This document shows, one piece after another, positions 40,367 through 46,007 of a stretch of 64,000 nt of DNA. A model generated the notes under the pieces. The model saw nothing but the letters and a program-made list of their open reading frames with translations, was not told the origin of the DNA and did not search any database. Position 1 is the stretch's first letter, and each line of letters starts with the position of its first letter. The translations under genes and the position numbers were made by a program. The stretch comes from Liquorilactobacillus nagelii DSM 13675 (GTDB lineage Bacteria; Bacillota; Bacilli; Lactobacillales; Lactobacillaceae), in contig NZ_CP049304.1 in NCBI RefSeq assembly GCF_019444005.1, forward strand, positions 620,001 through 684,000. The letters run 5' to 3'.

Positions 40367-42205
40367 GTGAAACGCATTCCGGAAGAAACGGTTGAACAAA
40401 TACGTTCGAGCGTTAATATTGTCGAAATTGTCAGTCAATACGTTCAGTTGCACAAATCAGGTAAAAATTATTTTGGCCTTTGTCCATTTCATGAAGAAAA
40501 GACGCCTTCTTTTTCAGTGACTGAGGAAAAACAAATTTTTCATTGTTTTTCCTGTCACCGTGGCGGCAATGTTTTCAAGTTTATTATGGAAATTGAAAAC
40601 ATTAGCTTTCCAGAGGCGGTTATTAAAGTTGCTGAATTAGGGGGGATTGATTTACCCAAGTCAGTCACTGAAAGTAATGCGACTGCCGGTTCAGCGGATA
40701 CCCAAGTTGGTCAGTTGCGTCAAATACATTCTTTAGCGGCTGATTTATTTCACCATATTTTAGTCAATACGGAAATTGGTGAAACGGCACTGAAGTATTT
40801 GCATCAACGTGGCTTGACGGACGAAACAATTGAAACTTTTCACTTGGGATATGCACCAGTTCAACAAGTGTTGCTACCATTCTTGGAAGATCGACATTTT
40901 CCGCGTGAGTTGTTAATTCGTTCGGGCTTATTTACCGAAAATGATGCCGGACAACTTTATCAGCGCTTTAAAGAACGGGTACTTTTTCCGATTCGTGATC
41001 CGCAAAAACGGGTAATTGCTTTTTCAGGGCGCTTACTGAAAAAGAATGAGAAACTACCTAAATATCTGAATAGTCCCGAAACATTATTGTTTAATAAACG
41101 TAAAGTGTTGTTTAATTTTGATTTAGCCAAGAGTGAGATTCGGCAGCATGGGTTTGCAATCTTGTTCGAGGGGTTTATGGATGTTATTTCGGCATACCAA
41201 GCCGGAGTGCAGCAAGGTATCGCTTCAATGGGAACTAGTTTGACTAATGAACAAATTTACTTGTTGGAACGGACAACAGATCGTTTATGCTTGTGTTACG
41301 ATGGTGATGATCCTGGTCAAAAAGCAACAGCACGAGCATTACAACTCCTGCAGCCATTAACCAAATTAGAATTAGGTGTGATCCCAATCCCAGGTAAACG
41401 TGATCCGGATGAATACATTAATCAGGAAAGTCCAACGGCTTTTGTAAAGTTAGTTAAAGATGGTCAACAAAATCAGATGTCTTTTTGGTTTTCGTTTTTA
41501 GCAGCTAACCGCAATTTAACTAACGAGAATGATCAGCTGGCATATATTTCTGATATCTTGGAAAAAATTGCTACCGTGGCCTCACCAGTCGCACGCGATT
41601 TGTATTTAGGGCAATTGGCGAAACGGTTTTCTTTAGAGAAAAGAAGTTTAGCGGGACAGTTGCATAGTTTGTTACAACAACGAGCTCGGCAAGACTTTCA
41701 ACAGCAAAAGCAACAACCAGCGTTAGTTGTTGCCAAGCCAGCACCGGCAGCTAAAAATTATCAACGAGTTGAAAAAGCAGAACGTTTGTTGCTTTATCGA
41801 TTGCTGCATAGTTATGATGTACGATTAAAATTGCGTGAAACACCAAATTTTGTTTTTGTCCATGATCAATATCAAACGATTTATCTGCTAGCAGAAGGCT
41901 ATTTTAAACGTTATGATGAGTACGATCCAGCTCGTTTCTTGGACTTTTTAGCTGACGATAAATTGCGACAGCAAATGGTTGAACTGGAGGTAGAAAATCA
42001 TGCGACTGTCAGTTCTAACGAGGAAATTGATGACTGTATTCGGCTGATTACGCAATTATCACCATTAGAAGAGCAATTAACAGCTTTGAAACAGGAGTTA
42101 GAAACTGCTCGGCGAATGAATAATCAAGCGTTGGTTGAGAAACTAACGATAAAATTTGTGGAATTACTGAAACAACGACAGCTGAAGAAATCAGCTTCAT
42201 TTTAA
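40367..42205 (+). CDS. dnaG: DNA primase
   Basis: 612 residues. N-terminal zinc-binding domain with CPFH (about residue 38) and CFSC (about 59); the catalytic core with the TOPRIM signatures LFEGFMD (about 267) and CYDGDDPGQKA (about 307); a C-terminal helicase-binding domain from about 450. It synthesises RNA primers at the fork. The start is GTG 40367, after GCGGGGGT. rpoD follows 12 bases after its stop, the classical dnaG-rpoD pair. Confidence 0.97.
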   Translation: MKRIPEETVEQIRSSVNIVEIVSQYVQLHKSGKNYFGLCPFHEEKTPSFSVTEEKQIFHCFSCHRGGNVFKFIMEIENISFPEAVIKVAELGGIDLPKSVTESNATAGSADTQVGQLRQIHSLAADLFHHILVNTEIGETALKYLHQRGLTDETIETFHLGYAPVQQVLLPFLEDRHFPRELLIRSGLFTENDAGQLYQRFKERVLFPIRDPQKRVIAFSGRLLKKNEKLPKYLNSPETLLFNKRKVLFNFDLAKSEIRQHGFAILFEGFMDVISAYQAGVQQGIASMGTSLTNEQIYLLERTTDRLCLCYDGDDPGQKATARALQLLQPLTKLELGVIPIPGKRDPDEYINQESPTAFVKLVKDGQQNQMSFWFSFLAANRNLTNENDQLAYISDILEKIATVASPVARDLYLGQLAKRFSLEKRSLAGQLHSLLQQRARQDFQQQKQQPALVVAKPAPAAKNYQRVEKAERLLLYRLLHSYDVRLKLRETPNFVFVHDQYQTIYLLAEGYFKRYDEYDPARFLDFLADDKLRQQMVELEVENHATVSSNEEIDDCIRLITQLSPLEEQLTALKQELETARRMNNQALVEKLTIKFVELLKQRQLKKSASF

Positions 42206-42217
42206 GGAGGCTGCACT

Positions 42218-43339
42218 ATGGCAGAAGAGAAAATGAATAATGAAAATGCTGCTTATACCAAAGCTTTACGACAAACGATTAGAAAATTTAAACCGGAAAA
42301 GCAGATTAGTTATGATGAATTAACTAAAAAGTTGGCAGCACCATTTGAACTTGATAGTAAACAAATGGAAAAATTGATCCAACGAATTGAAGATGCTGGA
42401 ATTTCAGTTGTTGATGAAAAAGGGGAGCCTAGTGAACATAGTTTAAAGGTTGCTTCTAAAGAAGCTGATAAAGCTACTAAGGATCGTGATGTTAGTGCGC
42501 CAGTTGGGGTTAAGATTAATGATCCAGTGCGGATGTATCTCAAAGAAATCGGCCGAGTTGATTTGTTAACGGCAGATGAAGAAGTAGCATTAGCTTTAAG
42601 AATCGAACAGGGTGACGAAGAAGCTAAGCAGCGGCTAGCTGAGGCAAACTTACGATTAGTAGTTTCAATTGCCAAACGTTATGTTGGTCGAGGAATGTCG
42701 TTTCTGGATTTAATTCAAGAAGGAAACATGGGTTTGATGAAGGCAGTTGAAAAGTTTGATTACCGTAAAGGTTTCAAATTCTCAACTTACGCTACTTGGT
42801 GGATACGGCAAGCAATTACACGTGCTATTGCTGACCAAGCACGGACAATTCGAATTCCAGTTCATATGGTGGAAACCATTAACAAGTTGATTCGAATTCA
42901 GCGGCAAATGTTGCAAGATTTAGGTCGAGAACCTACGCCAGAAGAAATTGGCGCAGAAATGGATATGCCGACGGATAAAGTTCGAGAAATTCTAAAGATT
43001 GCTCAAGAGCCAGTTTCTTTAGAAACACCAATTGGCGAAGAGGACGATTCACATTTAGGTGATTTTATTGAAGATCATGATGCTACTAGTCCCGCTGATC
43101 ACGCAGCGTACGAATTATTAAAAGAACAGTTGGAAAGTGTCTTAGATACTTTGACCGATCGAGAAGAAAATGTTTTACGATTGCGTTTTGGTTTAGATGA
43201 TGGTCGAACTCGAACTTTGGAAGAAGTTGGCAAGGTGTTTGGAGTTACCCGTGAACGTATACGGCAAATTGAAGCTAAAGCTTTGCGTAAATTGCGTCAT
43301 CCTTCACGCTCGAAGCAGTTACGTGATTTTTTGGAATAA
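42218..43339 (+). CDS. rpoD: Primary sigma factor RpoD/SigA
   Basis: 373 residues, the usual size for Gram-positive SigA. Region 1.2 starts at [16 protein letters not shown] (about 103); region 2 contains [17 protein letters not shown], used for -10 recognition and melting (about 188); region 4.2 contains the -35-binding helix-turn-helix [20 protein letters not shown] (about 330-350). ATG 42218 follows AAGGAGG. No good terminator follows, so rpoD transcripts may run into the leader at 43344-43602. Confidence 0.98.
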
Positions 43340-43343
43340 AGAA

Positions 43344-43371
43344 TTGCAATTTTATTAAAAAAGTGTATGAT
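43344..43371 (+). promoter_or_regulatory. Promoter of the mccA-mccB leader
   Basis: TTGCAA at 43344-43349, 16-base spacer, TATGAT at 43366-43371. Transcription would start near 43378, giving a leader of about 250 bases before mccA that contains a short ORF and a terminator. Confidence 0.6.
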
Positions 43372-43402
43372 TAAATCAACTTAAGAAAAGGAGATGGAAC
43401 TT

Positions 43403-43498
43403 TTGACAGCTTATAAACTTGCAGCTAACACATGTTGTTGTCGTATTTCGCGTTTAGCCACGCGGATGCGACTATTTGGCATGCAAGTTTTGAATTGA
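43403..43498 (+). CDS. 31-residue Cys-Cys-Cys leader peptide (candidate cysteine attenuator)
   Basis: TTG 43403 lies nine bases after a strong GGAG (43390-43393, in AAAAGGAGATGG) and opens a 31-codon frame ending TGA 43496-43498. Residues 11-13 are three consecutive Cys, all TGT (43433-43441); the rest is basic (RISRLATRMRLFG), with net positive charge and no signal peptide. It lies in the leader of mccA-mccB, genes that make cysteine from homocysteine, with a terminator between. Function is inferred: ribosome stalling at the Cys codons when Cys-tRNA is short. A functional small cationic peptide is an alternative. Confidence 0.7.
   Translation: MTAYKLAANTCCCRISRLATRMRLFGMQVLN
43440..43472 (+). 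other. Hairpin A of the mccA leader, immediately after the Cys codons
   Basis: Outer stem GTCGTAT (43440-43446) with ATGCGAC (43466-43472), one T-G pair, and inner stem CGCGT (43449-43453) with ACGCG (43460-43464), loop TTAGCC. Its 5' strand begins inside the third Cys codon, so a ribosome stalled at the Cys codons would block it. It is inside the short ORF. Confidence 0.6.
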
Positions 43499-43539
43499 AT
43501 GACATTAAGTTTTAAATTTTAATTAATTCAAGTTTGCAT
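43481..43539 (+). other. Hairpin B of the mccA leader
   Basis: ATGCAA (43481-43486) pairs with TTGCAT (43534-43539) and TTGAATT (43490-43496) with AATTCAA (43525-43531), separated by a small internal loop. It spans the stop codon of the short ORF, so a ribosome at the stop would disrupt it. Confidence 0.5.
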
Positions 43540-43569
43540 AGTTAAAAGTTAGACATCTTCAGCGGACGA

Positions 43570-43602
43570 GGCGCGAATCAAATTTTTGATTCGTGCCTTT
43601 TT
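43570..43602 (+). terminator. Intrinsic terminator in the mccA leader
   Basis: A 12-bp stem (43570-43581 with 43586-43597, GGCGCGAATCAA with one G-T pair), four-base loop and five T at 43598-43602. It precedes the mccA Shine-Dalgarno by about 13 bases and probably also ends dnaG-rpoD readthrough. Confidence 0.85.
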
Positions 43603-43629
43603 GTTTGCAAAAACAAGGAGGAATGTTAA

Positions 43630-45716
<2,087 letters not shown>

Positions 45717-46007
45717 CCAAGTTTTATTAGGTAGTTTAAATTATCAGTGTGTTCCGCAAAATGGAGAAGTTTACAGTTAACAGGAATTGCTGCTCGTAGA
45801 GTCTTTATTATCAGCAATTGAGTTTAACTTGAGTTTTTCGCTGGGCGGTTCATGCTTTTTTTATGGAATTAAAAGCCAGGTACAGCAATAACTTACCAAG
45901 GGTTTAGGGTTATTAGTTGCAGAAGAAAGAATGAGAAAAGGGTTTTTTTAAGATTTTAAGTCAGCTATAATTTAAAGTAAGGAATTTAGAGGGAGTTGGA
46001 AATTGAG
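45717..46007 (+). other. Intergenic region between mccB and trmK with an imperfect long hairpin
   Basis: About 290 bases without a credible gene. A two-part stem, AGTTAA (45775-45780) with TTAACT (45824-45829) and AATTGCTG (45785-45792) with CAGCAATT (45812-45819), is followed by a short T-run at 45834-45838 and another of seven T from 45856. A TATAAT at 45966-45971 may be the trmK -10, but no good -35 precedes it. One plus-strand frame is interrupted by only two stops over about 80 codons, which hints at a decayed ORF but matches nothing I know. Confidence 0.45.

Follow-up and report, generated by a model that had tools for sequence, protein, structure and literature searches.

The mccA-mccB genes of Liquorilactobacillus nagelii DSM 13675 are preceded by a leader that is very likely a cysteine-specific, ribosome-mediated transcription attenuator of the trp type, as judged from sequence comparison with relatives. 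The leader lies downstream of rpoD in a 64,000-nt stretch of DNA (hereafter the window; positions 620,001 to 684,000 of contig NZ_CP049304.1), whose numbering is used throughout, and all the features described are on its forward strand. It combines a short open reading frame (ORF) carrying a run of Cys codons, a hairpin A:A' that starts within this run, and an intrinsic terminator hairpin T:T', the 5' arm of which (T) can alternatively pair with an element overlapping A to form an antiterminator (A:T). An earlier note on this DNA had proposed such a device, and its interpretation is supported overall by the comparison.

As for the layout of the locus, a base-by-base check bears out the promoter-like site TTGCAA-N16-TATGAT (43344-43371; 9 of 12 matches), which begins at the fifth base past the rpoD stop codon, and the 31-codon leader ORF. 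The latter runs from a TTG at 43403 to a TGA at 43496-43498, is led by the strong Shine-Dalgarno (SD) sequence AAAGGAG (43387-43393) lying 9 nt from the start codon, and encodes the peptide MTAYKLAANTCCCRISRLATRMRLFGMQVLN. An alternative start in a mechanical ORF list, the ATG at 43394, directly abuts the SD, and the TTG is the better fit; the leader of L. ghanensis (L040), the closest named relative by MccA (84% identical), has the same TTG/SD layout. Three tandem TGT codons (43433-43441) form the proposed cysteine sensor, and hairpin A:A' (43440-43472; A 43440-43452, A' 43461-43472) begins within the third of them, as the note had described. The terminator hairpin (43568-43599), which has a 4-nt loop and ends in the U-rich tail TTTGTTT (43600-43606), was correctly placed, although its stem has 14 pairs (T 43568-43581, T' 43586-43599) rather than 12. 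The candidate antiterminator element TTCGCGTTT (43447-43455), composed of the 3' part of A and the loop, is complementary over 9 pairs to AGGCGCGAA (43569-43577) in the terminator 5' arm. The leader of the window folds far more stably than its shuffles (z -6.70, 0/200 as low). Taken alone, neither its promoter nor its terminator stands above chance, since a 3-kb stretch holds 12 promoter-like sites (8.0 by chance, standard deviation 2.8) and 2 terminator-like sites (2.3 by chance, standard deviation 1.6). A second hairpin, proposed over the stop codon, is present in the minimum-energy fold yet is no stronger than shuffles, 21% of which reach the window fold. Thirteen loci of the genus were folded, and the hairpin beats 95% of its shuffles in only 2, both of them outside the window; this hairpin was dropped.

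The first controlled gene (43630-44547) belongs to the cysteine synthase/cystathionine beta-synthase family (PF00291), and the second gene of the presumed operon (44571-45716) to the cystathionine gamma-lyase/synthase family (PF01053). Since the NCBIfam matches of both enzymes fall below the curated cut-offs, the names mccA and mccB given to them earlier are used here at family level. The terminator ahead of them might possibly double as the rpoD terminator.

Conservation of the leader and its hairpins

Comparison across relatives establishes, at the level of sequence, the ORF, its Cys run, the hairpin, the terminator, the antiterminator pairing and the position of this pairing by the Cys run. 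Used as a query, the leader peptide matched in 65 of 301 genomes at E up to 1, mostly by chance, and only L009 (the window's own locus), L010, L018, L019 and L026 among 30 such loci inspected lie at mccA. We therefore took the mccA gene as the anchor. A genome-wide search with the bare TGTTGTTGT was likewise uninformative (41 forward and 37 reverse matches). A search of 397 Lactobacillaceae genomes for MccA at E up to 1e-70 gave 111 matches in 109 genomes; 109 of these matches were analysed, two partial ones (G256 and G371) being left out. Once four paralogs (43% identical) and a locus at a contig end (L223) are set aside, 104 orthologs remain, which together with two plasmid copies make up 106 loci, 92 of them distinct in leader and arm.

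A short ORF with two or three tandem Cys codons (CC or CCC), whose retention in relatives was expected from the earlier proposal, is found upstream of mccA in all 104 analysable orthologs, its stop codon lying 84-466 nt upstream. Within the genus, both MccA and the Cys-run ORF upstream of it are present in 14 of 14 genomes (L052 being measured from a partial match). At the paralog loci (L053-L058), no similar ORF was seen by eye, some of them having stray CC pairs only. The ORF layout of the window is kept in the 106 loci, each with a run of three (70 loci) or two (36 loci) Cys codons, and an additional Cys follows later in 83. The best in-frame start, 9-15 codons ahead of the Cys run, has an SD-like match of 4 nt or more in 106/106. 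A stricter pattern, in which the SD of the CC ORF must reach 5 nt, occurs in 89/106 real and 6/1060 shuffled regions, and with CCC in 58/106 and 0/1060, respectively. A promoter-like site scoring at least 10/12 lies ahead of the leader in 79/106 loci, against 5% of shuffles. Moreover, the Cys codons switch synonymously between TGT and TGC across 74 distinct combinations, which, like the SD, would be compatible with translation of the leader ORF.

Both hairpins accompany the ORF. When the 45 nt that begin at the second Cys codon are folded, 92 of 92 distinct loci have a stem of at least 4 pairs whose start falls within the first 15 nt, and in 80 of them this fold after the Cys run beats 95% of shuffles. 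The terminators, located in relatives with a poly-T anchored finder, form a stem-loop in 92/92 (median -20.8 kcal/mol), and in 91/92 the 8-nt tail holds 5 U or more. The covariation that the note suggested looking for was assessed on 67 aligned loci of up to 165 nt, obtained by removing near-duplicates (81 loci) and then dropping 14 by hand (L049, L050, L147, L159, L166, L170, L171, L177, L180, L182, L185, L213, L216 and L232). The window's own locus exceeds this length and is absent from the alignment, and some of the hand-dropped loci are odd, so the count may flatter the structure a little. A:A' and T:T' covary above shuffles: 93.1% of cells are paired (76.3% when shuffled, at most 59.1% when slid), and cells with a double change number 192, compared with 57.6 in shuffles (0/500). 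The four A:A' pairs counted sit in or past the last Cys codon, where other residues vary between genera.

These features bear on a different explanation, in which the palindrome would serve a cysteine-responsive regulator as a DNA operator, the leader ORF being incidental. We regard this as very improbable. A U-rich tail comes after the palindrome in 91/92 distinct loci, and in L. paracasei the palindrome lies within a predicted Rho-independent terminator (PMC6004538); an operator would moreover leave the Cys run, the SD, the covarying A:A' and the A:T pairing unexplained.

The antiterminator pairing and the proposed switch

The A:T pairing, which had been proposed from the window alone, is kept in relatives with compensatory changes. 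We computed the best duplex between the leader and the terminator 5' arm, unconstrained, in each of the 106 loci. In the 92 distinct ones its mean energy is -16.0 kcal/mol, compared with -11.4 in shuffles. In 71/92, pairing in the leader starts 12-20 nt past the first Cys base, the commonest distance being 14 (27 loci), and a similar count puts this start at 10-20 nt in 73/92 loci, against 32% in shuffles. The A:T pairing thus starts roughly where the front of a ribosome stalled at the Cys run would be.

Since the MAFFT alignment shifts the 5' arm of the terminator by two columns from genus to genus, A:T pairs were counted with a re-sliding script and permutations. With the core anchored on an Arg/His codon, 700 of 814 cells are paired in 74 distinct combinations, whereas permuted and re-slid partners give 612.8 (standard deviation 6.7), with a maximum of 637 in 300 permutations. 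The four central columns are paired in 97-100%. Double changes occur at two positions. At one, the Arg codon (CGY) acquires an A in second position, giving His (CAY), where the arm changes from C to U (two-by-two counts 62, 2 and 1, 8, with one row left out). At the other, the base just ahead, G gives way to A where the arm changes from C to U (62, 4 and 0, 7, again with one row left out). In Leuconostoc-type leaders, the latter change is synonymous (Thr, ACG/ACA). Independent pairs that differ in the leader have an arm that changes the same way or not at all, never in the opposite way.

These substitutions are also what makes it hard to see the Cys-rich peptide as functional in its own right, in metal or redox binding or as a regulator in trans, with the hairpins serving merely as a terminator. 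That idea, for which we see slightly less chance than for an operator, could draw on the conservation of the Cys run, on the Arg or His found a few residues further on, and on the presence of a Cys among the last three residues in 62/106. However, residues past the Cys run vary with the RNA pairing, Arg giving way to His mostly where the arm has a U, and the synonymous Thr change tracks the arm among Leuconostoc-type loci. C-termini differ between genera, and no Pfam family (2 leader peptides tested) or NCBIfam family (5 tested) was matched.

Under the attenuator interpretation, what matters is which part of A the ribosome leaves free. A ribosome whose A site holds the first Cys codon has its leading edge at approximately +13 from the first Cys base. 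We folded 74 loci with the ribosome represented as a mask and the transcript ending at the 5' arm of the terminator. The mean probability of A:T, P(A:T), was 0.91, 0.69, 0.27 and 0.03 when the free RNA started at +13, +16, +19 and +22, respectively. In this calculation, the antiterminator can thus form only with the ribosome at or ahead of the Cys run.

Stalling, co-transcriptional capture and a response to cysteine are what we infer for Liquorilactobacillus nagelii. The leader peptide would be translated while the leader RNA is being made. With ample Cys-tRNA, the ribosome would clear the Cys run, pass over the antiterminator element and depart, after which A:A' would re-form, T:T' would form and transcription would halt ahead of mccA. 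With scarce Cys-tRNA, the ribosome would stall while its A site holds a Cys codon, covering the 5' half of arm A and blocking A:A'. The 3' half (TTCGCGTTT in the window) would then be free at the leading edge and could capture the 5' arm of the terminator before the 3' arm exists, allowing RNA polymerase to read through into mccA-mccB for the conversion of methionine to cysteine.

Several results weigh against this reading. The A:T duplex is better than 95% of the locus' own shuffles in 48/92 loci only, and single loci are often inconclusive. A:T columns outside the central four are paired in 58-92%, and arms from other genera match the score of a locus' own arm in a median of 9.5% of cases, this share being below 5% in 21/74 loci only. 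On the MccA tree (103 rows), there are few independent changes (2 and 4 in the leader, 5 and 3 in the arm), and independent pairs are too few for sign tests to reach significance. A core pair is broken in an L. casei plasmid copy and in L177. As for the two hairpins, 13 pairs have any double change, which is not clearly above the 11.0 seen in shuffles (43/500). Some of the further copies of the element described below have no Cys run, with CFC ahead of mccB-type genes (five read) and CLC ahead of a transporter. Before the 3' arm of the terminator exists, A:T is also favoured without a ribosome (0.72 with RNA free from -20, 0.84 from 0), and the state without translation is therefore not clearly predicted. 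Finally, once the full-length RNA is at equilibrium, the terminator prevails in all states: even under the stalled-ribosome mask the mean P(T:T') is 0.81 and P(A:T) 0.17, and the window locus has a P(T:T') of 0.95 and a P(A:T) of 0.00. The switch must consequently be kinetic. Offsets of 14, 17 and 20 nt in the equilibrium calculation stem from the anchoring of the core by codon number and, unlike the positions of the unconstrained duplexes, are not evidence.

The loci with a broken core pair appear, from their sequences, to be natural variants with a weakened antiterminator. In the L. casei plasmid copy (L157, which has the same leader and arm as L182) and in L177, the core Arg codon has changed to Leu or His and the arm shows no corresponding change.

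Least probable of all is that the RNA senses a signal other than the ribosome, as a T-box binding tRNA-Cys or as a metabolite riboswitch: T-boxes and S-boxes are the usual devices in Firmicutes, and one Cys-specific T-box is reported ahead of a transporter operon in L. paracasei FAM18149 (PMC6004538), but no Rfam family, T-box included, matched 42000-46000 at E up to 1, the same paper reports neither a T-box nor an S-box ahead of cysK2-ctl1-cysE2, and the most conserved part of the leader is a run of Cys codons in an SD-led ORF.

Distribution, targets and mobility

We searched for the element with a covariance model built without the window's own locus. A single copy was found in the genome of the window (E 7e-9; the next match is at 0.13). 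In Lactobacillaceae, the element is present at E up to 0.001 in at least 139 of 397 genomes and 18 of 40 genera, a count in which some weak matches may be due to chance. Across the order, 38 of 395 genomes have it at E up to 0.01; seven genomes of one genus in another family match at E 1.8e-12 to 1.2e-9, 7/7 ahead of mccA-mccB-type genes. A search at class level matched 3 of 398 genomes, own included. The weakest matches (those at E 0.13 and above in the own genome; G417, G1022; L269-L273; L342) were set aside as probably due to chance.

Outside the analysed mccA loci, we sampled 48 places among the matches listed. The element precedes an mccB-type gene in 31, in 8 of which an amino-acid ABC transporter follows, and lies directly ahead of that transporter in 5 more. 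In another 5 it precedes peptide-binding proteins (2 tested, PF00496), with leaders that have four Cys, and in 3 a MetA-type gene (2 tested, PF04204), with a CysK-type gene next in 2. The remaining places are one ahead of mccA, two at contig ends and one (L342) that is apparently spurious. For the transporter (L344 and L349), the best NCBIfam matches are a cystine permease and a cystine-binding protein, below cut-off, and these names are again at family level. As for metA, the gene so annotated in L. paracasei encodes a serine acetyltransferase (Bogicevic 2016, as cited in PMC6004538). On this sequence evidence, the predicted targets of the element are cysteine synthesis and uptake-type genes, named at family level.

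Some copies depart from the common layout. The rest of the device is recognisable in L316, L317, L327, L331, L338 and L319, of which five have Cys-Phe-Cys and one Cys-Leu-Cys. In one genome, two adjoining peptide-binding protein genes (L311 and L312) each have a separate four-Cys leader. About 1.1 kb separates the element from the mccB-type gene in L346, compared with 21 nt in its near relative L304; this gap is probably an insertion and may uncouple the switch.

The switch probably travels with its operon, given the location of some copies on plasmids and the close copies found in another genus. The Lacticaseibacillus operon with its leader is carried by plasmids typed as mobilizable or conjugative (L156, L157, L351 and L352), and in the MccA tree close copies of it appear in another genus (L177, L183, L188, L189 and L191). 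The cluster is called highly mobile in the title of PMC6200037.

The controlled proteins are also poor in cysteine. The window MccA and MccB (43630-45716) contain zero cysteines, where 40 long ORFs of the window average 0.50% Cys; rpoD and nine other window ORFs are without Cys as well. Among relatives, 103/106 MccA have no Cys in their first 300 residues and 30/31 MccB-type proteins have none. This avoidance suits genes that need to be translated during cysteine shortage.

We favour, with some reserve, a broader proposal, namely that one mobile class of attenuator runs the cysteine regulon of Lactobacillales (synthesis, cystine and peptide uptake, and MetA/CysK-type genes) in place of T-boxes or DNA-binding regulators, the codons past the Cys run doubling as the antiterminator. 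The attenuator would thereby give many Lactobacillaceae a cysteine regulon.

Relation to known systems

The enterobacterial trp and his attenuators, in which a ribosome stalls at tandem codons and alternative hairpins decide the fate of an intrinsic terminator, follow the same logic as the device proposed here. They differ from it in that here arm A, by the stall site, would be the antiterminator strand itself, and in that the terminator begins a median of 104 nt past the first Cys nucleotide. If the proposal is true, the first ribosome can steer termination by RNA polymerase in these Firmicutes. Transcription and translation are reportedly uncoupled in Bacillus subtilis, and the attenuator thus bears on whether ribosomes control termination in Firmicutes.

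The polycysteine short ORFs of mycobacteria are leaderless, as Canestrari reportedly described in 2020, a feature of that group that contrasts with the SD of at least 4 nt ahead of all 106 ORFs here. Cys leader peptides were proposed in Actinobacteria by Seliverstov (2005, PMC1262725), likewise as short ORFs with a run of Cys codons ahead of cysteine genes and with a presumed response to cysteine. In Mycobacterium, according to that paper, the runs are near the stop codon and no conserved terminator hairpin accompanies them, whereas here a hairpin right after the run is combined with an intrinsic terminator and a conserved antiterminator. For M. smegmatis, PMC13236596 describes translation attenuation, in contrast to the transcription attenuation proposed here in a different phylum. 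Among Gram-positive bacteria, the His leader-peptide attenuators of Firmicutes (PMC2965389, PMC9413887) also have a codon run, a terminator and an antiterminator; they concern histidine and belong to the Bacillus cereus group, Eubacteriales and Erysipelotrichales, His T-boxes being reported for Lactobacillales (PMC9413887).

The earlier note knew of no described equivalent in lactobacilli. This has to be set beside PMC6004538, which describes for L. paracasei the cysteine response and the terminator of the same operon, with no mechanism given. There, in strain FAM18149, expression of cysK2-ctl1-cysE2 without Cys exceeds that without Met about 8-fold (log2 -2.9 to -3.2 in the paper's sign), and coverage of the 5' untranslated region (5'UTR) is high, with a predicted Rho-independent terminator over AAGGGCGCGAAA-N16-TTTCGCGCCCTT; this operon is tied to the formation of sulfur flavour in cheese. 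Strains W56 and CAUH35 of L. paracasei carry AAGGGCGCGAAA-N16-TTTCGCGCCCTT unchanged ahead of cysK2-ctl1-cysE2, as a terminator 3' of a CCC leader ending in NAINCCCRTTRFWRCSAC. Judging from these two sequences, the published 5'UTR terminator is very probably the same element as ours; the available text of PMC6004538 reports the regulation and the terminator and does not name a leader peptide. Both the induction without Cys and the 5'UTR coverage would agree with readthrough upon starvation. According to the authors, how this regulation works still awaits discovery, and they also suggest an antisense RNA as an additional component (PMC6004538). The attenuator offers a mechanism for this cysteine response. 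A cysteine leader peptide in Lactobacillales was not found among the matches listed in the open-access full-text literature, subscription papers being outside its scope. Cys leader peptides in Actinobacteria and His leader peptides in Firmicutes are known, and what appears new is a Lactobacillales Cys attenuator with a terminator and an antiterminator.
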